Assembly (NCBI RefSeq): GCF_910592395.1
Contig: NC_088315.1
Coordinates: 10,418,501 to 10,482,500, forward strand
From: Lineus longissimus
Taxonomy: Eukaryota > Nemertea > Pilidiophora > Heteronemertea > Lineidae
DNA: 64,000 nucleotides
Direction of reading: 5' to 3'
Shown here: piece after piece, positions 4,761 through 61,200 of the stretch
Numbering within the stretch: the first letter of the stretch is position 1
Layout: each line of letters opens with the position of its first letter
Notes under the pieces: generated by a model
Seen by the model: the letters and a program-made list of their open reading frames with translations, nothing else
Database searches by the model: none
Told to the model about the DNA's origin: nothing
Translations under genes and position numbers: made by a program

Positions 4761-4905
4761 CATTTTTTCCCGCTGATTGGACTTTGCGCAAAGAAAGCAA
4801 CGCAACGCAACAGGCTCCATGTGTATTTTCCTATTTACAATACACAGCCTGGTCATACTAAGATCGTGGTTATGGGGAGTTATCATTGCAAAAGTAGGAC
4901 AAACG

Positions 4906-6766: not shown

Positions 6767-6772
6767 CAAACG

Positions 6773-10701: not shown

Positions 10702-11790
10702 TTAGTCACTTTTGACAATGGCCTGTTCTATAGGAGATACATCATATGGGTCACTTTTGACATTGGCCTGTTCTAAAGGAGATATGTCACATGGGTCAAT
10801 TTCGACACAGGCATGTTCTATAGGAGATATGTTACATGGGTCACTTTTGACAATGGCCTGTTCTAGAGGAGATACGTCATATTGCTCACTTTTGACATTG
10901 GCCTGTTCTATAGGAGATATGTCACATGGGTCACTTGTGACATTGGCCTGTTCTATAGGTGATATGTCACATGGGTCACTTTTGACATTGGCCTGTTCTA
11001 TAGGAGATATGTCACATGGGTCACTTTTGATATTGGCATGTTCTATAGGTGATATGTCACATGGGTCACTTTTGACATTGGCCTGTTCTATAGGAGATAT
11101 GTCACATGGGTCACTTTTGACATTGGCCTGTTCTATAGGTGATATGTCACATGGGTCAATTTTGACATTGGCCTGTTCTATAGGAGATATGTCACATGGG
11201 TCAATTTTGACATTGGCCTGTTCTATAGGAAATATGTAACATGGGTCACTTGTGACATTGGCCTGTTCTATAGGTGATATGTCACATGGGTCACTTTTGA
11301 CATTGGCCTGTTCTATAGGAGATACGTCATATTGCTCACTTTTGACATTGGCCTGTTCTATAGGTGATATGTCACATGGGTCACTTTTGATATTGGCATG
11401 TTCTATAGGTGATATGTCACATGGGTCACTTTTGACATTGGCCTGTTCTATAGGAGATATGTCACATGGGTCACTTTTGACATTGGCCTGTTCTATAGGT
11501 GATATGTCACATGGGTCAATTTTGACATTGGCCTGTTCTATAGGAGATATGTCACATGGGTCAATTTTGACATTGGCCTGTTCCAGAGGAGATATATCAC
11601 ATGGGTCACTTTTGACAATGGCCTGTTCTATAGGAGATATGTCACATGGATCTCTTTTGATATTGGTCTGTTCTATAGGAGATATGTCATATGTGTCAAT
11701 TTTGATATTGTTCTGTTCTATAGGTGATATGTCACATGGGAAGCTTTTGACATTGGTCTGTTCTATAGGATATATGTCAGATTGACGTAG
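10381..11790 (-). repeat. 31 tandem 45-bp units encoding CDISPIEQANVKSDP repeats (copy B)
   Basis: In the gene B frame there are 31 units of 15 residues with consensus CDISPIEQANVKSDP: 24 before the premature stop and 7 after. Variation is confined to a few positions (Q/H, N/I/C, V/I, K/T, S/I, DP/EQ). Almost every unit carries V/I-K-x-D/E, which fits the SUMOylation consensus psi-K-x-D/E, and an S-P dipeptide. Blocks of several units recur in order, indicating duplication of multi-unit segments. Confidence 0.93.
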
Positions 11791-13965
11791 TACACTTTTG
11801 AAACAGTTGATTTCTGCAGCTGGCAGATTAAAGTTCCCACTGAGGACATTTCTCTCCTCTCTAACATGAACAACTTGTAGGTCTCTTTCAGCCCTGACCT
11901 GCCCTGTAGCAGATGTGTTAGCTGGTTCAACTCTTCCATTAGACTGGTCAGCAGCAAACATGTCAATGAGTTCACTCGTAACATTTCCCTGCTGATAAGA
12001 ATGATGCTCAATAGAATCATGTATCAACCTTCGTTTCACAGCCAGCCGCCAAACTTTATATTCCTCAGTTTTCGCAGTACTACCCAGACCTAGAGTTTCA
12101 CTCCCATTGATACCAGACATTTTTGCAGCCGTGTCCTTGATATCCATGTCAGAACACCCTACTGCAGCGGGCAACTTCGATACCTTACTCTCAGTCTTTC
12201 TGCTGATCAAACATTCATTTGCCGCAAAACATGCAGGTTTTGGGTTTCGTCCATTTAGAGAATATTTGCTATTTAAATGATCGGTTAGTTCTACTGCAGG
12301 TTCTTCTGCCACAACAGTTAGTTCATGACGAGACAATGAACAAGAACTTTTCATAGCTTTGCCACGTTTTGGCTTTGAACGTTTATCCTTTCCGGGACTT
12401 TCAACAGACACCTTCAAAGATTTGCGCGTACCATGATTGTGGCTGCGCTTATGTTTTTGTAAGTCAGACTCACTCTTGAAGATTTTATGACAATATTTAC
12501 AGTTGAAGTTGAGTTGGAATGGTTTGTCTCTGGCATGAATACCAATATGTCTGACAAGAGCCAGCTTTGAGACAAATGATTTATCACATTGTACACATCT
12601 GAATGGTTTTTCTCCTGTGTGAATGTGAACGTGATGGCGAAGAGCCTGCTGAGAGCAAAATGGTTTTTCACACTGTATATATCTGAATGGTTTTTCTCCT
12701 GTGTGAATACCTTTATGAGTTAATAGATTTCCCTTCTGTGAAAATGATTTTTCACAATGACTGCACTGAAATGGTTTTTCTCCCGAGTGAATACGTTCAT
12801 GCCTCAATAATGTTCCCTTCTGTGAAAATGATTTCTCACAATATTTGCATTGGAATGGTTTTTCTCCTGTGTGAATATTTTCATGAGACAATAAAGTTAC
12901 CTTCTGTGAAAATGATTTTTCACAATGACTGCACTGAAATGGTTTTTCTCCCGAGTGAATACGTTCATGCCTCAATAATGTTCCCTTCTGTGAAATTGAT
13001 TTCTCACAATATTTGCATTGGATTGGTTTTTCTCCTGTGTGAATATGTTCATGAGACAATAAAGTTACCTTCTGTGAAAATGATTTCTCACAATATGAGC
13101 ATTGGAATGGTTTTCCTCCTGTGTGAATACGTTGATGATGTGATAGGTTTCGCTTGCGTGAAAATGATTTTTCACAATATTTGCACTGAAATGGTTTTTC
13201 TCCTGAGTGAATACGTTCATGCCTCAATAATGTTCCCTTCTGTGAAAATGATTTCTCACAATATTTGCACTGAAATGGTTTTTCTCCTGTGTGAATATGT
13301 TCATGAGACAATAAAGTCACCTTCCGTGAAAATGATTTCTCACAATATTTGCATTGGAATGGTTTTTCTCCTGTGTGAATACGTTTATGACGCGATAGAT
13401 TTCGCTTGTGTGAAAATGATTTTTCACAATATTTGCACTGAAATGGTTTTTCTCCTGAGTGAATACGTTCATGCCTCAATAATGTTCCCTTCCGTGAAAA
13501 TGATTTTGCACAATATTTGCACTGAAATGGTTTTTCTCCTGAGTGAATACGTTCATGCCTCAATAATGTTCCCTTCCGTGAAAATGACTGCTCACAATAT
13601 TTGCATTGGAATGGTTTTTCTCCTGTGTGAATATGTTCATGAGACAATAAAGTTACCTTGTGTGAAAATGATTTCTCACAATATTTGCATTGGAATGGTT
13701 TTTCTCCTGTGTGAATACGTTCATGCCTCGATAATGTTCCATTCTGTAAAAATGATTTCTCACAATAATTGCACTGAAATGGTTTTTCTCCTGTGTGAAT
13801 ACGTTTATGACGTGATAGAGATCCCTTCGCTGAAAATGATTTCTCACAATATTTGCATTGGAATGGTTTTTCTCCTGTGTGAATACGAATATGTTCAACG
13901 AGACGATGCTCAGTTGAAAAAGATTTCTCGCATTGTACACAAGTAAAGGATGATTTAGGTGCCAT
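10702..13965 (-). CDS. C2H2 zinc-finger protein, copy B (truncated by nonsense change)
   Basis: Single-exon frame of 1,087 codons starting MAPKSSFTCVQC at 13,965. Residues about 8-515 hold 18 C2H2 fingers with TGEKPF/SGEKPF linkers. Finger 16 has lost its first cysteine (Tyr codon at 12,679-12,681; Cys in copy C). Then come a basic stretch KDKRSKPKRGKAMK (likely nuclear localisation), a serine-rich linker, and from about residue 725 the 15-residue repeat array. The stop TAA at 10,702-10,704 replaces the CCA (Pro) codon of a normal unit, and coding similarity to copy C continues beyond it. The product is probably a nuclear DNA-binding regulator with a sumoylatable tail; that role is inferred from domains only. 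It may be a recent pseudogene. Confidence 0.85.
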   Translation of the reverse strand: MAPKSSFTCVQCEKSFSTEHRLVEHIRIHTGEKPFQCKYCEKSFSAKGSLSRHKRIHTGEKPFQCNYCEKSFLQNGTLSRHERIHTGEKPFQCKYCEKSFSHKVTLLSHEHIHTGEKPFQCKYCEQSFSRKGTLLRHERIHSGEKPFQCKYCAKSFSRKGTLLRHERIHSGEKPFQCKYCEKSFSHKRNLSRHKRIHTGEKPFQCKYCEKSFSRKVTLLSHEHIHTGEKPFQCKYCEKSFSQKGTLLRHERIHSGEKPFQCKYCEKSFSRKRNLSHHQRIHTGGKPFQCSYCEKSFSQKVTLLSHEHIHTGEKPIQCKYCEKSISQKGTLLRHERIHSGEKPFQCSHCEKSFSQKVTLLSHENIHTGEKPFQCKYCEKSFSQKGTLLRHERIHSGEKPFQCSHCEKSFSQKGNLLTHKGIHTGEKPFRYIQCEKPFCSQQALRHHVHIHTGEKPFRCVQCDKSFVSKLALVRHIGIHARDKPFQLNFNCKYCHKIFKSESDLQKHKRSHNHGTRKSLKVSVESPGKDKRSKPKRGKAMKSSCSLSRHELTVVAEEPAVELTDHLNSKYSLNGRNPKPACFAANECLISRKTESKVSKLPAAVGCSDMDIKDTAAKMSGINGSETLGLGSTAKTEEYKVWRLAVKRRLIHDSIEHHSYQQGNVTSELIDMFAADQSNGRVEPANTSATGQVRAERDLQVVHVREERNVLSGNFNLPAAEINCFKSVLRQSDIYPIEQTNVKSFPCDISPIEQNNIKIDTYDISPIEQTNIKRDPCDISPIEQAIVKSDPCDISPLEQANVKIDPCDISPIEQANVKIDPCDISPIEQANVKSDPCDISPIEQANVKSDPCDISPIEHANIKSDPCDISPIEQANVKSEQYDVSPIEQANVKSDPCDISPIEQANVTSDPCYIFPIEQANVKIDPCDISPIEQANVKIDPCDISPIEQANVKSDPCDISPIEQANVKSDPCDISPIEHANIKSDPCDISPIEQANVKSDPCDISPIEQANVTSDPCDISPIEQANVKSEQYDVSPLEQAIVKSDPCNISPIEHACVEIDPCDISPLEQANVKSDPYDVSPIEQAIVKSD

Positions 13966-14510
13966 TCTGGTGCTTTTTAGCGGCTAAATGTCGCCGCAAT
14001 ATTCAGGCCAATACAAAGTCCTCGTGCTTGAACAATCTAACATAGATTTCAAATTGAAATACAAGTACTGTCATTGCTTAGCAAGGACTCCTTGCCAGCT
14101 ATGTCGTAAACTGTTTACGAACCTAACCTGTTAAAATTACTCTATGACTACTGAATTACATGTGCTGCAAACATGGCATTGAAAGTGTGCTCCATTGCTT
14201 TGTTTGTTCCACAGATTCCGTCAATGACCTTTTTTCCCTTTCAAATTATTCCACTTCTCGATCATCTGTCCAACCAACTGGGGTCTTATCTGCTATTTTT
14301 GCGGGTTTTGCACGACAAGTTTTCTTAGGTGCGTTCACGGTTTGGAGACATTTTCACTCTTGTTTTGATAGTGATTTATCATCAGTGACCTCTGCGACCA
14401 CACCTACGAATGAAAAAGAATATGAGAGTATACATGTGCACAAATTGTTTAAATGCTTGATTACAGCCAATATACCTCTACCAGATTGTGTTAGCATATA
14501 TTTACAAGAT
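13966..14510. other. Conserved 5' flank of zinc-finger unit B
   Basis: Near-identical to the flanks at 622 and 30,466. The short protein-like minus-strand frame of units A and C is interrupted here by an in-frame TAA (GAAGTGGAATAA on the minus strand), so it is not maintained. No other gene seen. Confidence 0.6.
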
Positions 14511-22956: not shown

Positions 22957-23399
22957 GAGACAAGACCACTAATGAATATTCATAGGTCGGAGGGTCGAGG
23001 CCTATCAATTAGACGAGTGCATGTTTTTTACTCTCAAGTACATATTTGGAGAGGTATTGAAAAAATATTTGCTGTGGCAAGTCTACAGATATAAAGAAAT
23101 TATTTGATGAAAAAATTAATTTCGAATTTTGCTAATTGGGTAATAGGGGGCGTGTTTTGAGTTTTTTCTGCCAGTTGGCTGAAAACAGTGGAAATATCAA
23201 AGTCTGTCTAATTTGTCGATTATAAAAAAATTTCCGTGGTCAATCACCAATTTCCATCGCACCAGTTACTCGCAAGACTAACCCGTATATCATATCCGAA
23301 TTTCAGTTTCACTACTTGACGCGTTTGTTGATGCGTCGCGGTCAAACATTGACAATTTAACTGCTAAAAGGCTTAAAAAATCAATTGTGGTCTTGTCTC
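22957..23399. mobile_element. Solo terminal module of the GAGACAAG transposon family
   Basis: 443 bp begins GAGACAAGACCACTAATGAA and ends with the inverted GTGGTCTTGTCTC, flanked by TTAT on both sides (22,953-22,956 and 23,400-23,403). Unit A keeps the empty site ATATTTTATCAGAA at 7,348-7,361, so the insertion came after the A/B duplication. It matches the terminal modules at 37,938-40,369 and 51,424-56,886 but is a slightly different variant, intermediate between them in places. No ORF. Confidence 0.92.
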
Positions 23400-26868: not shown

Positions 26869-29800
26869 CTAATCTTTCTCTTTACACAACATTTCTGCCC
26901 AGCGATCAAACACTGCAATGTATTCATCAATCTTAGATATATCAACCTGTGCACCACTGGAGTTTTCCTGCTCTATTAAATCATGCCCTGCTTGAGGCGT
27001 GTCATCAGCTGACTCACTTTTCACACTAATTTGCTCTAGAGAAGATATGTCACATGCTTCACTTTTGACACCGGCCAACTCTATCTGAGAAATGTTACAT
27101 GTTTCTCTTTCGATATTGGCCTGCTCTAATGGAGAAGTGTCAAACGGCTCACTTTTAACACTGGCCCCCTCTTCTGAAGATGCGTCAAGTGGCTCACTTT
27201 TGACATGGACCTTCTCTATAGGAGACATGTTGCCGATCTCACTTAACACATTGGCCTCTTCTGTAGGAGACGTGTCACATGGTCCAATTACCTGTACGGT
27301 ACAACCCTGCTCTAGATGAGACATGTCATATTGCTCACTTTTGAACTTGGCCTGTTCTATAGAAGATATGTCAAATAGGACACTTGTGACATTGGCCTGT
27401 TCTACAGAAAATATGTCACATGGGTCACTTTTGACATTGGCCTGTTCTATAGGAGATATGTTACATGGGTCACTTTTGATATTGGCCTGTTCTATAGGAG
27501 AAATATAAAATGGGTCACTTTTGATATTGGCCTGTTCTATAGGAGATATGTCACATGGGTGACTTTTGATATTGGTCTGTTCTATTGGAGATATGTCACA
27601 TGGGTCTTTTTTGACATTGGCCTGTCCTATAGGTGATATGTCACATGGGACATTTTTTATATTGGTCTGTTCTATAGGCGATATGTCAGATTGACGTAGT
27701 CCACTTTTGAAACAGTTGATCTCTGCAGGTGGCGGGTTAAAGGTCCCACTGAGGACATTACTCTCCTCTCTAACATGAACAACACGTCGGTCTCGTTCAG
27801 CCCTGACCTGCCCCGTGGCGGATGTGTTGGCTGGTTCAACTCTTCCATTAGACTGGTCAGCAACAGACATGTCAATGAGTTCACTTTTAACATTTTCCAG
27901 CTGATTAGAAGGACGCTCAATAGTATCTCGTATCAACCTTCGTTTCACAGCCAGCCACCGAACTTTATATTCCTCAGTTTTCGCAGTACTACCCAGACCT
28001 AGAGTTTCACTCCCATTGATACTAGACATTTTTGCAGCCGTGTCCTTGATATCCATTTCAGAACACCCGACTGCAGCGGGCAACTTCGATACCTTACTCT
28101 CAGTCTTTCTGCTGATCAAACATTCATTTGCCGCAAAACATGCAGGTTTTGGGTTTCGTCCATTTAGAGAATATTTGCTATTTAAATGATCGGTTAGTTC
28201 TACTACAGGTTCTTCTGCCACAACAGTTAGTTCATGACGAGACAATGAACAAGAACTTTTCATAGCTTTGCCACGTTTTGGCTTTGTACGTTTATCCTTT
28301 CCGGGACTTTCAACAGACACCTTCAAAGATTTGAGAGTAGCATGATTGTGGCTGCGCTCATGTTTTTGTAAGTCAGACTCACTCTTGAAGATTTTATGAC
28401 AATATTTACAGTTGAAGTTGAGTTGGAATGGTTTGTCTCTGGCATGAATACCAATATGTCTGACAAGAGCCAGCTTTGAGACAAATGATTTATCACATTG
28501 AACACATCTGAATGGCTTTTCTCCAGTGTGAATGCATTCATGAATCAAAAGATTCTTCTTCTGTGAAAATGATTTCTCACAATATTCACATTTGAATGGT
28601 TTTTCTCCTGTGTGAATGTGAACATGATGGTGAAGAGCCTGCTGCGAGCAAAATGGTTTTTCACACTGTATACATCTGAATGGTTTTTCTCCTGCGTGAA
28701 TACCTTCATGAGTTAATAGACCACCCTTCTGTGAAAATATTTTCTCACAATAATTGCACTGAAATGGTCTTTCTCCTGGGTGAATACGTTCATGAGTCAA
28801 TAGATTTCCCTTCCGTGAAAACATTTTCTCACAATATTTGCATTGGAATGGATTTTCTCCTGTGTGAATACGTTCATGAGTCAATAAAATCCCCTTCCGT
28901 GAAAATGATTTCTCACAATATTTGCATTGGAATGGTTTTTCTCCTGTGTGAATACGTTCATGAGTCAATAAAATTCCCTTCAGTGAAAATGATTTCTCAC
29001 AATATTCGCATTGGAATGGTTTTTCTCCTGTGTGAATACGCTCATGAGTCAATAAAATTCCCTTCCGTGAAAATGATTTCTCACAATATTTGCATTGGAA
29101 TGGTTTTTCTCCCGTGTGAATACTTTCATGGGTCAATAGATTTCCCTTCTGTGAAAATGATGTTTCACAATATATGCATTGGAATGGTTTTTCTCCTGTA
29201 TGAATATGTTCATGAGTCAATAGATTTTCCTTCTGTGAAAATGATTTCTCACAATGTTTGCATTGGAATGGTTTTTCTCCTGTGTGAAGGCATTCATGAG
29301 TCAATAGATTTCCCTTTAGTGAAAACATTTTCTCACAATAATTGCACTGAAATGGTTTTCCTCCTGTGTGAATACGTTCATGAGTCAATAGATTTCCCTT
29401 CTGTGAAAATGTTTTCTCACAATGACTGCACTGAAATGGTTTTCCTTCTGTGTGAATACGTTCATGAGTCAATAGATTGCCCTGCTGTGAAAATGTTTTC
29501 TCACAATATTTGCATTGGAATGGCTTTTCTCCTGTGTGAATATATTCATGAGACAATAAAGTTTGCTTCTGTGAAAAGGATTTCTCACAATATTTGCACT
29601 GAAATGGTTTTTCTCCTGAGTGAATACGTTCATGCCTCAATAATGTTCCCTTCTGTGAAAATGATTTCTCACAATATTTGCATTGTAATGGTTTTTCTCC
29701 TGTGTGAATATGTTCATGAGACAATAAAGTTACCTTCTGTGAAAATGATTTCTCACAGTATTTGCATTGGAATGGTTTTTCTCCTGTGTGAATACGTTCA

Positions 29801-30465
29801 TGAGAAAATAAAGTTCCCTTCTGTGAAAATGATTTCTCACAATATTTGCACTGGAATGGTTTTTCTCCCGAGTGAATACGTTCATGCCTCAATAATGTTC
29901 CCTTCTGTGAAAATGATTTCTCACAATATTTGCATTGGAATGGTTTTTCTCCTGTGTGAATACGTTCATGAGACAATAAAGTTCCCTTCTGTGAAAAGGA
30001 TTTTTCACAATATTTGCACTGGAATGGTTTTTCTCCCGAGTGAATACGTTCATGCCTCAATAATGTTCCCTTCTGTGAAAATGATTTCTCACAATATTTG
30101 CATTGGAATGGTTTTTCTCCTGTGTGAATATGTTCATGAGATAATAAAGTTACCTTCTGTGAAAATGATTTTTCACAATATTTGCACTGAAATCGTTTTT
30201 CTCCTGAGTGAATATGTGCATGCCTCAATAATGTTCCCTTGCGTGAAAATGATTTCTCACAATAATTGCAATGAAATGGTTTTTCTCCTGTGTGAATACT
30301 TTTATGACGTGATAGATTTTTTTTCTTATGTGCAAATGATTTCTCACAATAATTGCATTGTAATGGTTTTTTTCTTGTGTGAATACGAATATGTTTAACG
30401 AGACGATGCTTAGCTGAAAATGATTTCTCGCATTGTACACAAGTAAAGGATGATTTAGGTGCCAT
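26869..30465 (-). CDS. C2H2 zinc-finger protein, copy C (full length, 25 fingers)
   Basis: Single-exon frame of 1,198 codons, start MAPKSSFTCVQC, end ..LCKEKD. Residues about 8-725 hold 25 C2H2 fingers. Finger 2 has one extra residue before its first His. Fingers 4-10 alternate between RHERIHSGEKPF and SHE(H/R)IHTGEKPF types, evidence of two-finger duplications. Helix residues are mostly Q-G-T-R, Q-V-T-S or Q-G-N-T at -1, 2, 3, 6. A basic stretch KDKRTKPKRGKAMK follows. A linker then leads into eight 15-residue DISPIEQ..KSDP units (about 925-1,048) and a C-terminal region with further VKSEP/VKSEA motifs. It is the only intact member of the trio. Probable nuclear regulator; targets unknown. 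Confidence 0.93.
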   Translation of the reverse strand: MAPKSSFTCVQCEKSFSAKHRLVKHIRIHTRKKPLQCNYCEKSFAHKKKNLSRHKSIHTGEKPFHCNYCEKSFSRKGTLLRHAHIHSGEKRFQCKYCEKSFSQKVTLLSHEHIHTGEKPFQCKYCEKSFSQKGTLLRHERIHSGEKPFQCKYCEKSFSQKGTLLSHERIHTGEKPFQCKYCEKSFSQKGTLLRHERIHSGEKPFQCKYCEKSFSQKGTLFSHERIHTGEKPFQCKYCEKSFSQKVTLLSHEHIHTGEKPLQCKYCEKSFSQKGTLLRHERIHSGEKPFQCKYCEKSFSQKQTLLSHEYIHTGEKPFQCKYCEKTFSQQGNLLTHERIHTEGKPFQCSHCEKTFSQKGNLLTHERIHTGGKPFQCNYCEKMFSLKGNLLTHECLHTGEKPFQCKHCEKSFSQKENLLTHEHIHTGEKPFQCIYCETSFSQKGNLLTHESIHTGEKPFQCKYCEKSFSRKGILLTHERIHTGEKPFQCEYCEKSFSLKGILLTHERIHTGEKPFQCKYCEKSFSRKGILLTHERIHTGENPFQCKYCEKMFSRKGNLLTHERIHPGERPFQCNYCEKIFSQKGGLLTHEGIHAGEKPFRCIQCEKPFCSQQALHHHVHIHTGEKPFKCEYCEKSFSQKKNLLIHECIHTGEKPFRCVQCDKSFVSKLALVRHIGIHARDKPFQLNFNCKYCHKIFKSESDLQKHERSHNHATLKSLKVSVESPGKDKRTKPKRGKAMKSSCSLSRHELTVVAEEPVVELTDHLNSKYSLNGRNPKPACFAANECLISRKTESKVSKLPAAVGCSEMDIKDTAAKMSSINGSETLGLGSTAKTEEYKVRWLAVKRRLIRDTIERPSNQLENVKSELIDMSVADQSNGRVEPANTSATGQVRAERDRRVVHVREESNVLSGTFNPPPAEINCFKSGLRQSDISPIEQTNIKNVPCDISPIGQANVKKDPCDISPIEQTNIKSHPCDISPIEQANIKSDPFYISPIEQANIKSDPCNISPIEQANVKSDPCDIFSVEQANVTSVLFDISSIEQAKFKSEQYDMSHLEQGCTVQVIGPCDTSPTEEANVLSEIGNMSPIEKVHVKSEPLDASSEEGASVKSEPFDTSPLEQANIERETCNISQIELAGVKSEACDISSLEQISVKSESADDTPQAGHDLIEQENSSGAQVDISKIDEYIAVFDRWAEMLCKEKD
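27330..27690 (-). repeat. Eight tandem 45-bp units in gene C
   Basis: Units such as CDISPIEQANIKSDP, more diverged from each other than in copy B. Most keep I/V-K-x-D; some have lost it (for example VTSVL). Same position in the protein as the 31-unit array of copy B. Confidence 0.9.
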
Positions 30466-31239
30466 TCTGGTGCTTTTTAGCGGCTAAATGTCGTCGCAAT
30501 ATTCAGGCCAATACAAAGTCCTCGTGCTTGAACAATCTAACATAGATTTCAAATTGAAATACAAGTACAATGTACTGTCATTGCTTAGCAAGGACTCCTT
30601 GCCAGCTATGTCGTAAACTGTTTACCAACCTAACCTGTTAAAATTACTCTATGACTACTGAATTCCATGTGCTGCAAACATGGCATTGAAAGTGTGCTCC
30701 ATTGCTTTGTTCGTTCCACGGATTCCACCAATGACCTTTTTTTCCCTTTCAAAATATTCCACTTCTCGATCATCTGTCCAACCAACTTGGGTCTTATCTG
30801 CTATTTTTGTAGGTTTTGCACAATAAGTTTTCTTTGGTGCGTTCACAATTTGGAGACATTTTCACTCTTGTTTTGGTAGTGATTTATCATCACTGCGACC
30901 ATACCTACGAATGAAAAAGAATATGAGATTATACATGTATACAAATTGTTTAAATGCTTAATTACGGCCAATATACCTCTACCAGATTGTGTTAGCATAT
31001 ATTTACAAGATGCCCACTTAATGAGCAAAGAACCAGGTTTCAAACACTGATCATGTGGATTTTGGGTGAACACTACAATGGCAGCCAGCAACCATCTAGG
31101 AATTTGGATCTGGCACGAATTCCGACCATTCAGATTGATTTGGATAAATGAGAGGTGTCATTAGAAATCGCTCCTGATGAACGAATCAACGCAGATGGAG
31201 GACTTCACAAGATTTTGAAGCATGTGGGAATCAGATTAT
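30466..31239. other. Conserved 5' flank of zinc-finger unit C
   Basis: Third copy of the flank at 622 and 13,966. It keeps the pre-insertion site of the unit B LINE (near 31,006). No promoter element can be defined by eye. Confidence 0.6.
30655..30846 (-). pseudogene. Short protein-like frame upstream of the zinc-finger gene (remnant?)
   Basis: Minus-strand frame with PTKIADKTQVGWTDDREVEY and then GTNKAMEHTFNAMFAAHGIQ before a stop. The unit A copy (779-994) shares the first part but shifts frame after a one-base difference in an A run, and the unit B copy has an in-frame stop. It opens with GTG, with no in-frame ATG, so it could be an internal exon or a decayed gene. Family not recognised. 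Confidence 0.3.
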
Positions 31240-37937: not shown

Positions 37938-40369
37938 GAGACAAGACCACTAATGAATATTCATAGGTTGGAGGGTCCAGGCCTATCTATTAGACGAGTG
38001 CATGTTTTTTACTCTCAAGTACATATTTGGAGAGGTATTGAAAAAATATTTGTTGTGGCAAGTCTACAGATGTAAAGAAATTATTTGATGAAAAAATTAA
38101 TTTCGAATTTTGCTAATTTGGTAATAGGGGGCGTGTTTTGAGTTTTTTCTGCCAGTTGGCTGAAAAGAGTGGAAATATCAAAGTCTGTCTAATTTGTCGA
38201 TTAAAAAAAAATTTCCGTGGTCAATCACCATTTTATTTTTCACCATTTACTTGCCCGACTGTCCGGAATAACATAATCTAAATTTCAGATTCACAACACC
38301 ACGCGTTCTTTGATGCGTCGCGGTCAAACATTGACAATTTAACTGCTAAAAGGCTTAAAAAATCAATTGTGGTCTTGTCTCTATTTACACTACATTTTGG
38401 GTCAACATAGTGAAAAATTTGAATGTGCTCAAATCACTCTAATTCATTTAGAATATTGTATTGCTGATGATTTAAGGTCAAAACAAGCTAAAATAATGAG
38501 AAAAAAACTTAATTTGACCCAAATAAGAGTCAACCTAACCCCGGTCTAAGTTCGGTTTCATTTTTACAAGTCTTGTTGTGTTGCCATTCATTTTGTAATT
38601 TCTTTGAAACTACTTAGGCCTTGATTCTGAAAGTTGTTCCCTAAGTAGCAAAGATATTCCTAAATCACATCCTAAAGTTTCAGCTCCATAGCTTGCTTAT
38701 TCTGGCCAGGGCAGGTCTTTGAATTTGGTGCTGTTGGGTGCAAAATCATGACTTTTTGTCGATTTTGTCCTCTTTCGTCGCTTTGGCACAGTTGTACCAC
38801 TCTTTGAAATGTCTCTCATTTCTCCAAAAATGTCCAGATATGACTTTCCTTTGTTGGAGAGTTGTGGGATGTCATGTACATTAGTTTGAGAAAAAATCTC
38901 AAAATGTTAACCCCTGAAATGTACCTTCATTGAGACAAGACCACTAATGAATATTCATAGGTTGGAGGGTCCAGGCCTATCTATTAGACGAGTGCATGTT
39001 TTTTACTCTCAAGTACATATTTGGAGAGGTATTGAAAAAATATTTGTTGTGGCAAGTCTACAGATGTAAAGAAATTATTTGATGAAAAAATTAATTTCGA
39101 ATTTTGCTAATTTGGTAATAGGGGGCGTGTTTTGAGTTTTTTCTGCCAGTTGGCTGAAAAGAGTGGAAATATCAAAGTCTGTCTAATTTGTCGATTAAAA
39201 AAAAATTTCCGTGGTCAATCACCATTTTATTTTTCACCATTTACTTGCCCGACTGTCCGGAATAACATAATCTAAATTTCAGATTCACAACACCACGCGT
39301 TCTTTGATGCGTCGCGGTCAAACATTGACAATTTAACTGCTAAAAGGCTTAAAAAATCAATTGTGGTCTTGTCTCTATTTACACTACATTTTGGGTCAAC
39401 ATAGTGAAAAATTTGAATGTGCTCAAATCACTCTAATTCATTTAGAATATTGTATTGCTGATGATTTAAGGTCAAAACAAGCTAAAATAATGAGAAAAAA
39501 ACTTAATTTGACCCAAATAAGAGTCAACCTAACCCCGGTCTAAGTTCGGTTTCATTTTTACAAGTCTTGTTGTGTTGCCATTCATTTTGTAATTTCTTTG
39601 AAACTACTTAGGCCTTGATTCTGAAAGTTGTTCCCTAAGTAGCAAAGATATTCCTAAATCACATCCTAAAGTTTCAGCTCCATAGCTTGCTTATTCTGGC
39701 CAGGGCAGGTCTTTGAATTTGGTGCTGTTGGGTGCAAAATCATGACTTTTTGTCGATTTTGTCCTCTTTCGTCGCTTTGGCACAGTTGTACCACTCTTTG
39801 AAATGTCTCTCATTTCTCCAAAAATGTCCAGATATGACTTTCCTTTGTTGGAGAGTTGTGGGATGTCATGTACATTAGTTTGAGAAAAAATCTCAAAATG
39901 TTAACCCCTGAAATGTACCTTCATTGAGACAAGACCACTAATGAATATTCATAGGTTGGAGGGTCCAGGCCTATCTATTAGACGAGTGCATGTTTTTTAC
40001 TCTCAAGTACATATTTGGAGAGGTATTGAAAAAATATTTGTTGTGGCAAGTCTACAGATGTAAAGAAATTATTTGATGAAAAAATTAATTTCGAATTTTG
40101 CTAATTTGGTAATAGGGGGCGTGTTTTGAGTTTTTTCTGCCAGTTGGCTGAAAAGAGTGGAAATATCAAAGTCTGTCTAATTTGTCGATTAAAAAAAAAT
40201 TTCCGTGGTCAATCACCATTTTATTTTTCACCATTTACTTGCCCGACTGTCCGGAATAACATAATCTAAATTTCAGATTCACAACACCACGCGTTCTTTG
40301 ATGCGTCGCGGTCAAACATTGACAATTTAACTGCTAAAAGGCTTAAAAAATCAATTGTGGTCTTGTCTC
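37938..40369. mobile_element. Triple-module derivative of the GAGACAAG transposon family
   Basis: Three 444-bp modules (37,938-38,381; 38,932-39,375; 39,926-40,369) appear identical by eye. They alternate with two identical-looking 550-bp spacers (38,382-38,931 and 39,376-39,925), giving a 994-bp period. Each module starts GAGACAAGACCAC and ends GTGGTCTTGTCTC. AGCC flanks the whole array (37,934-37,937 and 40,370-40,373), so it entered, or was bounded, as one unit. Spacers begin TATTTA..TTTTGGGT and end CTTCATT, as does the interior of the 5.46-kb copy, but are otherwise unrelated and non-coding. Confidence 0.93.
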
Positions 40370-48205: not shown

Positions 48206-49147
48206 CAAGGAGGATACCGCGGTGACGTCACATCACGTGATCCCGACCCATATTAGTGATCGCTATGGCCAATCAGATTCAGTCTAATGACAGCACCAGC
48301 ACTGAGCACATCTCCACGTCTCACTGTCTGGTGCGCTCCTGTACACAAAAACACCAATAGACATGAAATATTGCAATACCTAGTATGGATTCTTCCTGTG
48401 TAAAATAAAATTTACACAGCAGATTAACTTCCACGAATAAAAAAGACGTTTGGCGTGGCCAAAGTGCGGAAATAATGTCTCCGCTAAAATACACTACGAA
48501 ATACACTAGGCAATGCACTACGCAATATACAGTAGAGATGCAGTTGAGTTTGTTATTGTTTTGACTTAGAAGCCCGCCCATATCATAATATATTCATGTA
48601 TTCATGAAGTATGAACTCATTTCTGTCCCATACAACTCTAAGAACAGTCAATTTCTCCTTAAATCATCACCGAAACCGCGATATCCGCAGGAAGATTTCG
48701 TTTAGTGTCCGAAAATGCATGATCTTACAGGGGCGCTAACTCGACAAATAGAGGGGATCTATGGGGATCTATGCGAGTTTTAGGTATTACAGGTCTCGAA
48801 CTTGTAAAATCTGTAAACATGCCTCCAAATCCCATTATGATAATGAAGAGATTGCCCCATATCTGGGAGACTGTTTTGAAACCATCGCTAATTTTGGAAG
48901 ATCGGTGCCGGCTATTTGGTTTAAAAAACCCTATTTTTCCCCATCAAAACAGCACTTTTCATTATTCAAATGATAGCTTATTGTCTGAAGACTTATTTCA
49001 TAGCAGAAAAGTACTAATAACTCTGACTTGATGCGAAAAATCTAACTTTTTTGATGACTTGATTTTCCCTTGGCCGTGGATCGAGTTTGTTTACAATATG
49101 CAGCGCCATTTTGGAAAAGCCGTGACGTCACCGCGGTATCCTCCTTG
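48206..49147. mobile_element. 942-bp MULE-like element with 9-bp TSD
   Basis: Inverted termini CAAGGAGGATACCGCGG (extending through TGACGTCAC) with GCCGGATGC on both sides (48,197-48,205 and 49,148-49,156). The interior has short frames only, so it is non-autonomous. The TGACGTCA palindrome in both termini is a CRE-type word; whether it acts as one is unknown. Confidence 0.9.
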
Positions 49148-50040: not shown

Positions 50041-51423
50041 GTATTGCCAGATACGCCGGCACCACCTAGGGTCGCCAAAACAAACCATGTTTACAATAGA
50101 TCTTCACAGAAAAGGATGCACATTGGCTCGAGACGACATTCGAAAGTCGGTCAGCGGGTAGCACGTGTGCACAGCATGATGAACTATCAAGATTTTTTAC
50201 AATTTGTAATACAATTTTTTAAAGGATATTTGATTGACGGGGTGCAATAGCATCGGCCAGCATCAACATGGCAATGACGGCATGAAAGAGGCTTGGCATC
50301 TCCAGCACATATCGTTTAAGATATGTTTCAAATCAGTTGCAAAAATTTTTTTCTACCACTTACATGTATTTCTTTTTGTTTTGTAAATATGATTGCATCG
50401 GGATACCAAATCTTGGTAACTCATGTTTTTTAAATGTGGCATTGCAGGCCCTCCGTGCCACCCCTGGGGTTTTTAATGCCACTCGTGCCCACACTCAAGT
50501 GTTTTGAAGAATGTAAAATCCGTAAGTATTTACTAAAATTTTAATACAGCCTTTTATTTTACAATAAAATGCTGTTACTACTGCAGGGTTATATCTAGGA
50601 TATCAATAGGGCATGGTGCTTAGTTATAAAAAGGGGCAGATCATTTATAAAAGGGGCACCCTTCAAGGGTGTTGAAGGAAAAAGGGGCAAATGCAACGCG
50701 CCGCAATTACCGATCACCAAGCTATGCTGAAAGCTTGTATCTGACCACTGAAAATTATCAAGTGATTTATTTATGTAATTGTGTATCATGCTTTATGTTG
50801 TCTATGTTGAAAAATAATTCGAAGAATGTAGTCACATAATCTGATATGGCATTGCCAGCAGCCCGTTCAGTGAACTTGCACTCGCAGTTGAAGAGGGATT
50901 TGTACAAGAATGGCAAAGAAGATATACCCCAGATATACCCGGAAGATATACATGCACGGCACAGACGTAGGACTGATCTAACTCTATCAATGCCAAAGCA
51001 CGTGGCCGTGACTGCAGCCCCGCCCACCATCACGATCGGCGCATGCAACCGCCGCTGAAGAACAAAACATTGCAATATATCGGCACAACAATGCTTAATT
51101 TCACTATTATTCATTTGATAAAGATTATTTCTGTTTTATTTACCCAAATAAAGCCTCTATCCGAGGACATTTGGCCGCCAACTGAGCCAACTTTGCCTCC
51201 TTCTCCTTCGCCCGCCTCTTTTTGCCCGGCATGATTTAATAGTTTTTTCAACTACCACCAGTCTGCGCCACCCTTCGTCCTCTTGCACGTGGCATTGGTG
51301 TGACGACCTCGCGTTCAGTGATGAATAATGTGCAGATGGATATACAGGTAGACGTTCTGTTGGCGACGGCTGTTGGTGAGGTAGACCCATCGCTAGCTTG
51401 AGGCTCGGATTGGCGGATTGGAT
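50041..51423. other. Intergenic; one short candidate exon on the minus strand
   Basis: At 51,140-51,232 (minus) an ATG opens MPGKKRRAKEKEAKLAQLAA and ends at TAA inside GGGTAAATAA, which could also be a splice donor. A Lys/Ala-rich start like this could be a first exon, but nothing downstream confirms it. The rest holds no supportable gene. Confidence 0.3.
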
Positions 51424-51855
51424 GAGACAAGACCACTAATGAATATTCATAGGTTGGAGGGTCCAGGCCTATCTATTAGACGAGTGCATGTTTTTTACTC
51501 TCAAGTACATATTTGGAGAGGTATTGAAAAAATATTTGCTGTGGCAAGTCTACAGATATAAATAAATTGTTTGGTAAAAAAAATAATTTTGAATTTTGAC
51601 AACCTGGCCATAGGGGGGGTGGTTCAAATTTGGAGTGAAAATGGCCGAAATGGGTAAAAATGTCCACTTGTGTCAAACTTGTCAATTTTAAAAAAAATTT
51701 CCGTGGTCAATCACCAATTTCCATCGCACCAGTTACTCGCAAGACTAACCCGTATATCATATCCGAATTTCAGTTTCACTACCTGACGCATTCTTTGATG
51801 GCGGGCATTTTAAATAACTGGAAATGGCTTGGAAAATCAATTGTGGTCTTGTCTC
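51424..51855. repeat. Left terminal module (432 bp)
   Basis: Direct repeat of 56,455-56,886. Begins GAGACAAGACCACTAATGAA, includes the palindrome ATGAATATTCAT, and ends with the 13-bp inverted terminus. Similarity to the 444-bp modules at 37,938 is high at the two ends and lower in the middle. Confidence 0.92.
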
Positions 51856-52230
51856 TATTTAGAGGGTTTTGGGTTACAGGTCAAAAATAGTAAATGAGCT
51901 CTGAAATCAACAAAAACCGTTTGAATTGGCTGAAATGTGTTGAGAATGTGTGGACATATCATTGAAATTGGAAAATGTGGAAAAAAAGAAAATTCTCAAA
52001 TTTAACCCCCCTGTCCTACAGGGCTTTTAAGTGAAAATGCCAAAAATTGAAATTTTCAAAAAATTTCAAATAATTTCAAATTTTTCTACTTTTTTGGGCT
52101 AGATATGTTTCATAACAATCATCAATTGTGAATAGTAATGAAAGTGTTGATTGTTTTGCATGTTATTTTCATTTTGGGAGGTGTCGGGCACAGAGCACGC
52201 TGGGTGGCAGGGTACCAAGCTTTCACTAAT

Positions 52231-52288
52231 TTTTAGCTCAGCTGACAAGCTGAGCTATTCATATGAGTAAATGGTAGAATGAATGTCC

Positions 52289-52319
<31 letters not shown>

Positions 52320-53081
52320 CGTTAAACAGGCACGTTTCAAAACTATGGCGGATAGGCGATAGATTTTCCCTATAAGCCATTTAGACCCTTCAGGACTCCT
52401 GAATAGACCAAGTGTGGGTCCGGCAGGATTAACAGTTTGGCCACCAGGGGGCAAAAAGCCTAAATCACAAAACAATTTTTTGGCGCTTTATTCAAGCAGA
52501 TAGAAGCTTGAAATAAAGTTGAAAAGGACCGCATGAATGTAGGTCTTGAAACTACTAAGAGTAGTTTTGATTGATACTACCAGTTGGCGTTACTGAGCCA
52601 AAATCTGTGTTGACCTAGTTTAAGCTTGATTTGAATTTCCCGCTCTTGTATGACTCTGAAGGTTGTGGGTTCCAATCCCACTTCGGGTCAATTTTTTTTT
52701 TTTTTAAATTTTTACTTTTTTCACTTGTAAATACATTTTCTTTACTTTTTTGAATAATTTGGTGGGCGGCCATCTTGGTTTTTTTTTCTATTTTAAAGCC
52801 TTTGCTGTATCCAGAGTGACATGAATTTTATGGTTGGTGTACAATAAGTCTCCTCTACATGATATCACATGGGCTTTCTATTTGACCTACTTTTCAAGGT
52901 CAGCCTGGCTCAGGCACTTAGATTTGACTAATAAGTGGCATATTTGTCACCATTTAAAAGTCTTTTTACTTTGGTATGTTTGCCTGATATATTGACAAAA
53001 CTGAGGTTGAAAGAGATCTATCGGGTACTTTCCATGTTCATATATTTCAGCTGAGCGCCAGGCCCTTGGGCCTCTTGTTTT
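52231..53081 (+). mobile_element. Nested AGCTCAGC repeat with (CTGT)n and tRNA-like segment
   Basis: Starts TTAGCTCAGCTGACAAGCTG, followed by ATTCATATGAGTAAATGGTA and a (CTGT)n run at 52,288-52,319. It ends at GGCCCTTGGGCCTCTTGTTT. The 5' part recurs at 60,920-61,200. Near 52,650-52,690 GTTGTGGGTTCCAATCCCAC looks like a tRNA T-arm followed by a T run. It lies between the left module and the nuclease ORF and probably separates that ORF from its upstream sequence. Confidence 0.75.
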
Positions 53082-53162
53082 ATTTCAGCAGGTGAATTCA
53101 AGAGAAAAGTATCTGAATTACGAGCGAGAATATAAGCAAAGACAAAAAGTAATGGTTTTTGT

Positions 53163-53575
53163 TTGAATTGGGAGGGGGCTAAACAAAAAAAGAGGGGGGT
53201 AACATACGGGTTTGTTAAAGTAAGTTTTTTGGATAAGCCGGTCACAATGACGGCACACCGGGCAATGTTTTTGTGTGACCATGATGAATTGAAATTCAAA
53301 ACTGGCGCAGGTTATCATATAAGTCATCTTTGTCATAATCCTCTGTGCGTGAAAGTCGAGCACTTGACAGTAGAAAGAGGAAGGGTCAATCAAATAGAAA
53401 AAGGTGCAATGCCAAGAAAGTCTGTGCAGGCCATGGCAACCGCCCTAAATGCATTTTTCCTGGTAAGCTATATGTTGAAGTTGAAAGAAAATATCATTAT
53501 ATTGAATTGACATTTGAAAGTTTTCTTACCGCGATGGCAACCTCTTGGATGTCTTGGTGGCTGGTTGGATCTTGA
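53163..53575 (+). pseudogene. His-Me finger (HNH-type) homing-endonuclease-like ORF, frameshifted
   Basis: Frame 1 (about 53,163-53,402) encodes TYGFVKVSF, MTAHRAMFL and then SHLCHNPLCVKVEHL. This last is the zinc-binding loop typical of zf-His_Me_endon proteins, with the catalytic His region. The second metal-binding part, RCNAKKVCAGHGNRPKCIF, lies in another frame. The shift falls at an A5 run (53,398-53,402) and looks like loss of one A. The second frame ends at a stop at 53,573-53,575, so the gene overlaps the 3' end of the transposase tail-to-tail by about 50 bp. Codons before 53,163 also look coding but contain a stop. Such endonuclease domains are known from mobile DNA; a role in this element is inferred. 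Confidence 0.7.
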
Positions 53576-55727
53576 AGGATCGCCGAAAGTAGGAGTGGTC
53601 GTAGTTTCTGCTGTTCGGGTCGAGACATTTCCACTCTGGTACAGGCGGTCTGTCTCGTCGTGCAACAGCCTTCTTGACAGCCTTCCTTCGCAAGTCTGGC
53701 ATTGTTATCATCACATGTTTCTTGTAGTCACCACCCCTGGTTTTGTTTTTCTTTTTCGTGAAGTAATCTGTTGCCCTGATGTTTTTCAAAACACCAGCTA
53801 ACTTCTGGTGTCTAGCACTCCGTTGGTACCTGACTGTGTACTGCCTGTTCATTGCAATTCTGTCCAGCGCTTTCATTGGGCGGCAACAAGTATCGACTTC
53901 GATGTTGAACCACTTTAGTTTCCGTCGCCCGCTCTCGGCTATGTTATGGTTCATTCTGTGGGCTGCTGAATGGATACGAGGGGTTGAGTTCCTGCTCCTG
54001 GTCACAATCTTAGGATCGCTGGCCGACAGACCTCGATTCTTGGACTCAACCCCCTGGGTTGTCACGCCAAGACTCAGCTGTCGCAACGCTCCTTTACTAA
54101 GGCATACCTCCAAAACGAGATGTACCAAGTTCTTGTCAATCACTGTCATTTTAAACTTGGGAATCTCACCGTAAGATGACCATCGTGTTGATTTGTGCCA
54201 CCAAGAACCAGTTGTGCCTGAGCACAGTGAGAATTCGTTCTGTGGACAACCAGTGCAGTCACCACCATAACAGTTCACAACACAGGCAACAGTGTCATGC
54301 AGGTATCCCATGATCCTGTCGAGATCACCGTTGCAGCGCTTGAATAGAGATTGCAAAATCTTGGATGACCTTACCCTAAGATCATTCAGAAACGTTGTTT
54401 TTAACAGTGTTCTCTCCTCAGCAGTACGTCCCGGGAACATACCTTTACTGAATTCAGCTCTATGTCCTGCACGCGTCTGGGCTTGATGCAAATGTATAGA
54501 GTCAAGATGATGCTTCACCGTGAACAAGCCGCCGAAGAGCTTTTTTGTTGCATCAGTTAACCCTTTGAATGAACTGGAATCACCATCTGTAGTCAAATGT
54601 TCTACATGTAGGCCCTGTTTCTCAAAAGTCTCGGCAAATGCAACCCCAAGATCATATTCTCTGAATGCATCTGCTTCAGGAAAGTTAGCCGTGCACTTCG
54701 AGTGTCGTTCGTCAACGTTTGTGCCAGTGGCACCACATTTAACTTCAAAACCTTTCGCCCGCATTGCAGCCCCTATCCAGCAGAGTTTTGTTTTAACCTC
54801 AATGTCAATGATTTTGTGTTCATCTGTCACATTTTCAACACATAATCCAGTCATTGTGCTCGCACAACGGCCCATCTTGTTCCTCGAAGTGAGGTGTAAA
54901 CTATTATAGCGTCCATCAGCTTGGACATTGATTCCTGTGTCGTCCTGATTTCTTAGGCGCAGTATCCTTTTCAAGTTCTCGCGTATGTCTGCCATATCGG
55001 CCACATTCATTTTAACTGTTTCATCACCAACCTTATTTGCCTGCTTTTGCATGATACTCCTACAGGGGGGCGGGATTCCCATCATGCACAGTATGTAACT
55101 CATACTCTCGTTGCCAATCATTGTGTCCTGCAACGCAATCTGTAATGCAACATTTGGAAGAGCGGCTTTTCGTCCGCGCTTGCCAGTGTCTATGTCCTCA
55201 AAAAGTTTATACAATTTCGAATAAAAACCACAGTTTTTACACACCACAGTGACTGAACAACACACCCCCTGCTTACGTACCTCTCCATATTTGAATATCG
55301 GCTGACAGTTCACGTGATATTCGCTATGGGCCCTGTTAACGTCGTTGAGCACATCCATCAGTTTGGTTGTCTGAACAACGAAACTCTCGTGATCATGCTC
55401 CATGGTCTCATCTGGTATCTCCATCTCATCATCAGTGTCTTCTTTCATGTTCAGCCGTAGTAAGTTGACATTCTTGGCAGTACGGTTATTAATATCCGGT
55501 ATGTGTCTTTTGCCGTCGTGTCCCATCGTTGTGACCTGTCCGTACCCCTGGGGCGTGAGTCGTCTCCATGCGGGTTGTAGGCCTACTTCTCGTTCGTCGT
55601 CGCTCACCACCTCGACACCTCCACTCCGCACGTGTCCGCTCTTGAACATTGTTCTCATTGCTGCACTCGATGCCCTAGGGCACCTCGGACCCCGTTTTCC
55701 TATCAATCTCCTCGCCTTTGTCCTCAT
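53526..55727 (-). CDS. Mutator-like transposase (733 aa)
   Basis: Long uninterrupted frame from ATG at 55,727. Order of motifs: VCCSVTVVCKNCGF zinc-ribbon-like cysteines; VQADGRYNS (Asp about residue 271); NKMGRCASTMTGLCVENVT; LTTDGDSSSFKGL (Asp about 381 and 383); HHLDSIHLHQAQ; VACVVNCYGGDCTGCP (Asp about 490); GVTTQGVESKNRGLSA; a basic C-terminus ending KTSKRLPSR. This is the pattern of the Mutator-like transposase domain family widespread in marine invertebrates. The Asp residues are candidate DDE/D metal ligands; which ones act is inference. The stop overlaps a consensus splice donor (CG|GTAAGA at 53,530/53,529), so a spliced longer form is possible. The frame is intact, so the enzyme may be functional. 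Confidence 0.88.
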   Translation of the reverse strand: MRTKARRLIGKRGPRCPRASSAAMRTMFKSGHVRSGGVEVVSDDEREVGLQPAWRRLTPQGYGQVTTMGHDGKRHIPDINNRTAKNVNLLRLNMKEDTDDEMEIPDETMEHDHESFVVQTTKLMDVLNDVNRAHSEYHVNCQPIFKYGEVRKQGVCCSVTVVCKNCGFYSKLYKLFEDIDTGKRGRKAALPNVALQIALQDTMIGNESMSYILCMMGIPPPCRSIMQKQANKVGDETVKMNVADMADIRENLKRILRLRNQDDTGINVQADGRYNSLHLTSRNKMGRCASTMTGLCVENVTDEHKIIDIEVKTKLCWIGAAMRAKGFEVKCGATGTNVDERHSKCTANFPEADAFREYDLGVAFAETFEKQGLHVEHLTTDGDSSSFKGLTDATKKLFGGLFTVKHHLDSIHLHQAQTRAGHRAEFSKGMFPGRTAEERTLLKTTFLNDLRVRSSKILQSLFKRCNGDLDRIMGYLHDTVACVVNCYGGDCTGCPQNEFSLCSGTTGSWWHKSTRWSSYGEIPKFKMTVIDKNLVHLVLEVCLSKGALRQLSLGVTTQGVESKNRGLSASDPKIVTRSRNSTPRIHSAAHRMNHNIAESGRRKLKWFNIEVDTCCRPMKALDRIAMNRQYTVRYQRSARHQKLAGVLKNIRATDYFTKKKNKTRGGDYKKHVMITMPDLRRKAVKKAVARRDRPPVPEWKCLDPNSRNYDHSYFRRSFKIQPATKTSKRLPSR

Positions 55728-56454
55728 CTTGTCTTGTCTTTTCGTAACTTGTCTCTCTTTGCTTAAAATCGTACTCCTAGGAGATGTCTATTTCGGGATG
55801 CTTCCTTCAACAGACTGAAAATACACAAGAAAGGACAAGAGATTACAAAAGGGTGGATGTTGATAGGACAATAGCAATGACAATGGTTGCTGTTGTGGAA
55901 GTGTGAGACTTGGATGTGACAGACAAGGAGATAACATATGGGTTCATCTTTTTCTCATTTCACACCTTACTAACAAGCTTTCCATGCTTATAATGCATCA
56001 TATATTTGTTGTTTTTCAAATTTCAGACAAAATTAATATTGTTCGATTTGAAATTTTGACATTTTCAGCATGATACCACTGTCACAACCTTGGAACATCC
56101 TTTAAAAAGACAACTTTTTTCCAAAAAATTGAAATTTTTGAATATTTGTCATGAATTAAAATTGTTTCAAATTCCTATTTCAGATTGACTGTAGACCACT
56201 GGTGATTTGTCGAAGATTCGGTACCATTCGATTAAGAATTCTACGAGTTAATGAGCTTAACTTGAAGACAGTCTGTAAACAATTTGAAGACGAAATATAA
56301 GGTAGGTTGTCCGTATCGGACAACATTTTAAAACGTTAATAGCTCGCTCAAATCAAGTTCATTTTTGATGAAACTTGGTTATGTTAGTCAAGACATCTCA
56401 AATGCTTGGGAAAAGGCATATTTCATTGATATCTCAAGATTAACCCTCTTCATT
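55728..56454. other. 5' side of the transposase gene inside the element
   Basis: Upstream non-coding DNA up to the right module; it should contain the transposase promoter and 5' UTR. AT-rich, no motif I can single out. Confidence 0.5.
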
Positions 56455-56886
56455 GAGACAAGACCACTAATGAATATTCATAGGTTGGAGGGTCCAGGCC
56501 TATCTATTAGACGAGTGCATGTTTTTTACTCTCAAGTACATATTTGGAGAGGTATTGAAAAAATATTTGCTGTGGCAAGTCTACAGATATAAATAAATTG
56601 TTTGGTAAAAAAAATAATTTTGAATTTTGACAACCTGGCCATAGGGGGGGTGGTTCAAATTTGGAGTGAAAATGGCCGAAATGGGTAAAAATGTCCACTT
56701 GTGTCAAACTTGTCAATTTTAAAAAAAATTTCCGTGGTCAATCACCAATTTCCATCGCACCAGTTACTCGCAAGACTAACCCGTATATCATATCCGAATT
56801 TCAGTTTCACTACCTGACGCATTCTTTGATGGCGGGCATTTTAAATAACTGGAAATGGCTTGGAAAATCAATTGTGGTCTTGTCTC
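56455..56886. repeat. Right terminal module (432 bp)
   Basis: Same orientation and, by eye, same sequence as 51,424-51,855. Lies upstream of the minus-strand transposase and could carry its promoter. Confidence 0.92.
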
Positions 56887-56890
56887 GGAT

Positions 56891-60919: not shown

Positions 60920-60979
60920 TTTTTTAGCTCAGCAGAAAAGCTGAGCTATTCATATGAGTAAATGGTAGAATGAGTGTCC

Positions 60980-61018
<39 letters not shown>

Positions 61019-61200
61019 CGTTAAACAGGCACGTTTCAAAACTATGGCGGATAGGCGATAGATTTTCCCTCTGAGGCGTTGAGACCCTTCAGGACTCCTG
61101 AATAGACCAAATGTGGGTCCGGCAGGATGAGCGGTTTGGCCACTAGGTGGCACCGAGCGAAATTTTCCAAAAACTTTTCCAGCAGCTGATTTCTCAGTTG
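60920..61200 (+). mobile_element. Second AGCTCAGC repeat copy with (CTGT)n, truncated
   Basis: Matches 52,231-52,450: AGCTGAGCTATTCATATGAG, then (CTGT)n at 60,979-61,018, then GGCGATAGATTTTCCCT. The 3' end (GGCCTCTTGTTT) is not found, so this copy is truncated or diverged. Confidence 0.7.

Follow-up and report, generated by a model that had tools for sequence, protein, structure and literature searches.

How does a DNA transposon keep two long direct repeats around its transposase gene when each repeat can also leave alone? The question is raised by an element at positions 51424-56886 of a 64,000-nucleotide stretch of the Lineus longissimus genome (assembly GCF_910592395.1, contig NC_088315.1, positions 10,418,501 to 10,482,500, forward strand), which we call the window. 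An earlier note on this DNA had described a DDE-type transposon with direct terminal modules resembling long terminal repeats (LTRs). That observation is confirmed. The same note knew of no family with this architecture, and on that point it was wrong for the field: the architecture is already known as KolobokP (Kojima & Bao 2022, Mob DNA 13:24; PMC9587614), and the note's comparison with a composite transposon or an LTR-like element run by a DDE enzyme comes close to the abstract of that paper. The layout is thus striking but described, and the question narrows to how KolobokP keeps its composite layout although its long terminal direct repeats (LTDRs) can leave alone, a point left open in the main text of Kojima and Bao. 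Two mechanistic results hold the remaining interest and are new relative to that main text: homogenisation of the LTDRs within a copy, and repeated insertion of new copies immediately next to old LTDR ends.

Layout and genes of the window element

The element and its target-site duplications (TSDs) comprise the following parts:

51420-51423, left TSD, GGAT (from the flank sequence)
51424-51855, plus strand, left LTDR, 432 bp, with 13-bp terminal inverted repeats (TIRs)
51856-56454, plus strand, internal region (INT), starting with TATTTAG and ending with CTTCATT
52233-53077, nested insertion of 845 bp (from alignment with the C15 copy and the lengths of five others)
53136-53510, plus strand, frame for a predicted His-Me finger (I-PpoI-like) nuclease, 124 amino acids (aa) (PF05551, E=3e-10)
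53526-55727, minus strand, predicted DDD/E transposase, 733 aa (PF20700)
56455-56886, plus strand, right LTDR, same sequence as the left
56887-56890, right TSD, GGAT (from the flank sequence)

The two LTDRs are identical at 432/432 bases, and each is bounded by a 13-bp inverted repeat (GAGACAAGACCAC; termini GA...TC). With the flanks, which read GGAT/GAGACAAG...TTGTCTC/GGAT, these results bear out what had been noted by eye, namely identical TIR-bounded repeats and a GGAT duplication. The length of 5.46 kb also stands, but 845 bp of it belong to the nested insert, which accounts for the size of this copy. The insert is absent from the C15 copy in an alignment and, as judged by length, from the other five elements aligned. 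Five of the six other elements or array units aligned measure 4.61-4.63 kb; the sixth has lost part of its right LTDR and is 4.55 kb long. The insert begins with TTAGCTCAGCTGA, ends with GGCCCTTGGGCCTCTTG and has a related stretch at 60921-61152; it looks Helentron-like.

The single long interior frame (53526-55787, minus strand) comprises 753 aa from stop to stop and 733 aa from the first Met, and matches the Pfam Mutator-like transposase PF20700 (E=9e-52). The interior had indeed been read as encoding a Mutator-like transposase, but a second gene had been missed: the frame at 53136-53510, convergent with the first, matches PF05551 (His-Me endonuclease zinc region). Twelve interiors without further interruptions were compared. 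Eleven have a transposase frame of 746-753 aa from stop to stop, and the twelfth one of 417 aa; the nuclease frame is 161 aa long in ten, 124 aa in the window copy and 128 aa in another. Besides the transposase frame, the window element has ten frames of at least 80 aa. Nine of them (all but 53018-53311, minus strand), including the nuclease frame, yielded no match to reverse transcriptase, integrase or protease, in agreement with the earlier statement that no retroelement protein lies inside. A profile search with NCBIfam gave no match.

The best named protein among the relatives of the transposase is from L. longissimus (95% identity over 57% of the query). When the window protein is aligned with eight of its 17 recovered relatives, residues D271, D381/D383, D409..H412, C316, C331, C345, C486, C491, C494, C502 and E561 are invariant, and the CCHC finger varies at its His. 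Following the description in PMC9587614, these positions are candidates for the catalytic residues, the DxxH motif and most of the finger cysteines.

Other copies in the window and the genome

The window holds two further insertions of this kind:

22957-23399, plus strand, solo LTDR, 443 bp, flanked by TTAT
37938-40369, plus strand, non-autonomous multimer LTDR-INT-LTDR-INT-LTDR, flanked by AGCC

The latter had been taken for a pair of 444-bp repeats; it actually contains three modules (37938-38381, 38932-39375 and 39926-40369), all identical, and two 550-bp INTs that are identical to each other.

A genome search seeded with the window module, which favoured the 432-bp family among the copies picked, yielded 42 module matches from the 40 candidates that were scored out of 1555 at first look. 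Around these matches 20 stretches of ~10 kb and 15 small ones, five of them inside the C13 region, were fetched. They contain solos as well as single elements and arrays of two or three units; C11 is an array of four LTDRs. All 40 modules measured are 430-444 bp long (not counting the C8b right module, which is shortened). Barring point changes, interiors start with TATTTA and end with CTTCATT (L023 starts with TATTTGG), and the other copies compared carry the transposase in this same interior. Collecting copies and tabulating their TSDs, the check proposed in the earlier note, showed that the layout recurs and that an exact 4-bp TSD, of varying sequence, flanks 17 of 19 tabulated insertions. 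Since the same layout occurs at further loci, chance flanking by two small elements is ruled out. At L016 and L025 one interior is joined to another; the LTDR and a few bases are gone from the junction, as expected after LTDR excision.

Two larger regions were considered. The reading of C13:10106851-10229566 as one 122-kb array, based on the TSD and flanks that its ends share with the C14 array, was not upheld: three of five sampled 1-kb pieces from its middle had no match, and a continuous array is therefore not claimed. At G000:C4:16022882-16074327, left and right KolobokP ends lie 51 kb apart with the common duplication ACAG, which suggests a long multimer or a large nested insertion.

Assignment to KolobokP

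KolobokP comprises 228 characterised families from seven animal phyla, and Table 1 of PMC9587614 lists L. longissimus among its hosts. As described in the main text of that paper, two LTDRs of about 450 or 660 bp carry their own inverted ends of 11-18 bp (5'-RR...YY-3'), the TSDs are 3-5 bp long and no strong target preference is reported. The DDD/E transposase has a C/DxxH motif and two fingers, one of CCHC type that follows the first D and a Cys finger that precedes the last E; downstream of its gene, the complementary strand encodes a His-Me finger nuclease. TSDs flank both solo LTDRs and (LTDR-INT)n-LTDR multimers, and interior-interior junctions with small deletions follow LTDR excision. 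Every KolobokP feature tested here was found: direct repeats of the expected kind, 13-bp inverted ends of the form GA...TC, TSDs of mostly 4 bp, the transposase motifs (from the nine-protein alignment, with the finger His varying), a nuclease frame on the complementary strand, and solos and multimers with TSDs (22957-23399, 37938-40369 and C11). Taken jointly with these features and the mechanism proposed below, the sequence makes it highly probable that the window element is an autonomous-type KolobokP DNA transposon of the Kolobok superfamily. In literature searches the name KolobokP was found only in Kojima and Bao (2022), which was also the only paper from 2022 on to come up for Kolobok elements with terminal direct repeats.

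Several points weigh against this assignment. The TSDs vary, in contrast to the TTAA of classical Kolobok elements, and an exact 4-bp TSD is missing in two of the 19 insertions (C17 and C14b). The nuclease assignment rests on PF05551, the match of the frame to the I-PpoI sequence being weak (E=0.23), and in ten of the 12 interiors this frame is longer than in the window copy.

Homogenised ends within a copy

Independent passenger modules would build up end-specific differences, and the ends were tested for them. The test drew on 23 insertions with 42 modules, all of the 432-bp family; 15 substitution columns were diagnostic, the minor base of each occurring in at least two insertions. In the 13 multi-module insertions, only 4 of 195 copy-by-column cells were mixed. 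With two modules per copy (the first and last listed), the differences summed to 3, compared with a mean of 57.3 after re-pairing, and none of 20000 re-pairings was as low as 3. Among ten two-module copies, no column was fixed for different bases in the left and right sets. In an earlier table of 31 modules, most within-copy differences were private or located in homopolymer runs. Subfamily states are thus common to the modules within a copy: its LTDRs are homogenised, i.e. kept alike, and the earlier suggestion of a single source for the two ends of a copy is supported. The same shared states reject independent composite ends. The main text of PMC9587614 does not contain such a test.

The mixed cells tell against complete homogenisation, and the design of the test also calls for caution. 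It counts as one copy the C4 ends, which share a TSD, and likewise the five C13 modules spread over 122 kb. It omits the nine modules that belong to the 443-444-bp families, and several diagnostic columns are adjacent (381-386) and may represent a single event. Moreover, homogenisation fits unequal crossover, circle and concatemer models alike. In the window and C15 copies all four modules are identical while the interiors differ by 29 substitutions and three indels, one of which is the nested insert. The estimated chance of such identity is ~0.04 if the two modules of each copy are treated as one sequence and 0.001 if treated as two, a weak, post hoc hint of homogenisation.

Insertion beside existing ends

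The genome was searched by pattern for two module ends facing each other with 0-20 bp between them. There are 42 such places, compared with none for a reversed-pattern control. The spacer is 4 bp long in 26 of them, 5 bp in 11, 3 bp in two, 2 bp in two and 11 bp in one; 37 of 42 thus fall at 4-5 bp, where an even spread over the 21 spacer lengths would give two each. The sequence was examined for 29 places, with the modules in direct orientation in 24 (including L048, which has no pair alignment and was counted from two module hits) and inverted in five. Twenty of 28 alignable pairs are less than 97% identical and eight are not, with values of 74-99.5% where whole modules were compared. As most pairs are below 97% identity, they are mostly separate insertions and not tandem copies. 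The clearest cases, in which M and M' are modules and I an interior, read GGAA[M]GGAA[M']GGAA (L052) and TGCT[M-I-M]TGCT[M']TGCT (L029 and L037). New copies have thus repeatedly inserted directly beside old LTDR ends, which could seed multimers. A term search of the main text of PMC9587614 found no mention of such insertions, and a literature search for end-adjacent insertion by eukaryotic transposons gave only a casposon title.

One inverted pair (L062, G000:C11:9120617-9121616) has the spacer TTCT, the reverse complement of the AGAA present on both outer sides.

This puzzling spacer pattern and three other points limit this reading or speak against it. The 42 places include local duplicates and reduce to 31 loci if merged within 50 kb, seven of the 28 pair alignments are shorter than 300 bp, and in 14 of 29 pairs the spacer 4-mer is repeated exactly (by eye) on the outer side of the abutting module.

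A favoured target spot in a carrier transposon

The window also contains an empty copy of a transposon that carries KolobokP elsewhere:

48206-49147, minus strand, empty copy of the carrier transposon, 942 bp, TIR CAAGGAGGATA

The carrier makes 9-bp target duplications (by eye). Its TCGAT spot is occupied by KolobokP at three other loci, at CGAT in C14 and C13 and at TCGA in C10. Between the C14 and C13 copies of the carrier there are 15 substitutions in ~0.94 kb, and between their KolobokP interiors 13-19 differences in ~3.4 kb. This divergence argues for repeated insertion at a favoured site over one insertion carried along, with later exchange between copies possible. A favoured spot of this kind also gives the end-beside-end pairs a rival explanation. 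A search for a target motif, which covered 13 of the 19 tabulated sites, found only a weak preference at the middle two bases.

Proposed mechanism and rival explanations

We propose that the transposase would most likely pair any two LTDR ends and insert them with a 4-bp stagger, so that the mobile unit may be an LTDR, an LTDR-INT-LTDR or a longer multimer. Exchange between LTDRs, by unequal crossover or by recombination of an LTDR-INT circle with an LTDR, would alter the number of units and keep the LTDRs of a copy alike; the nuclease possibly provokes this exchange, as Kojima and Bao propose in PMC9587614. Insertion beside an old end would supply neighbouring LTDRs as seeds for new multimers. 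Tentatively, the transposase complex might prefer the 4-5 bp just outside an LTDR end, and exchange between neighbours would then renew the layout and keep the ends identical; we consider this self-seeking behaviour quite possible, short of probable. The pairs could instead reflect an intrinsically favoured target, its 4 bp duplicated at each insertion, without recognition of the LTDR end. KolobokP elements at the same carrier spot (TCGA or CGAT) at three loci and the recurrence of the spacer 4-mer outside the abutting module in about half of the pairs favour such re-use, but the spacers are diverse 4-5-mers and the 13 target sites show a weak base preference only, and we regard it as a real but doubtful possibility.

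The other rivals concern the layout itself. Replication in the manner of LTR elements, in which an LTDR-INT circle gives a concatemer that the transposase cuts at any LTDR ends, would produce units that are born identical. The identical units of the AGCC-flanked multimer, LTDRs alike within a copy and TSDs at the outer ends of multimers are all in line with it; however, unequal crossover after insertion gives the same facts without a circle, no circle or concatemer was observed, and this origin appears rather unlikely. A bacterial-type composite, with two mobile modules that flank the transposase gene, travel together and evolve separately at each end, is very improbable. Solo modules with their own TSDs do indicate that modules can act as separate units, but this explanation is already contradicted by subfamily states common to the modules of a copy in nearly all cells, by the lack of any column that tells left from right ends and by interior boundaries at the same place across copies, barring point changes; in addition, the transposase is encoded in the interior and not in the ends. 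There is next to no likelihood that the element is a degenerate LTR retrotransposon with an inserted transposase. Direct terminal repeats and solo repeats would suit it, but the repeats bear 13-bp inverted ends, the PF20700 transposase occupies the same interior across the other copies compared, and no reverse transcriptase, integrase or other retroelement domain was found in the transposase frame and nine of the ten other frames, the primer-binding site and polypurine tract not having been searched for.

Other features of the window

Two paralogous zinc-finger frames on the minus strand (10702-13983 and 26869-30483) contain 17 and 24 C2H2 motifs by pattern, respectively. In both, 15-aa repeats like DISPIEQANVKSDPC form long arrays at the C-terminus, and the frames hold 21 and 12 matches to one sequence pattern, which we take to be SUMO-site-like. 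The region 4905-6767 holds long inverted repeats, up to 99% complementary, and one arm region contains tandem repeats of 42-117 bp.

Comparison with known systems

With KolobokP as described in the main text of Kojima and Bao, the window element and its relatives share the LTDR-INT-LTDR layout, LTDRs near 450 bp, solos, multimers, short TSDs, interior-interior junctions, RR...YY termini, a DDD/E transposase with a downstream nuclease on the opposite strand, and the host species; we found no structural difference from that description. LTR retrotransposons similarly form solo repeats and tandem arrays, and the direct repeats at the two ends of one copy are alike. In contrast to them, the window element has a DDD/E transposase, 13-bp inverted ends and no retroelement protein in the scanned frames. 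The translocatable unit of IS26 likewise combines one flanking unit with cargo and prefers insertion adjoining another copy (cited in PMC9587614). The IS26 transposase, however, is encoded inside the flanking unit, whereas that of KolobokP is in the interior, and the likeness is one of layout and behaviour. IS30 has a preference for end-adjacent insertion like that of IS26. If KolobokP does seek its own ends, this would be a habit of bacterial insertion sequences in an animal transposon.

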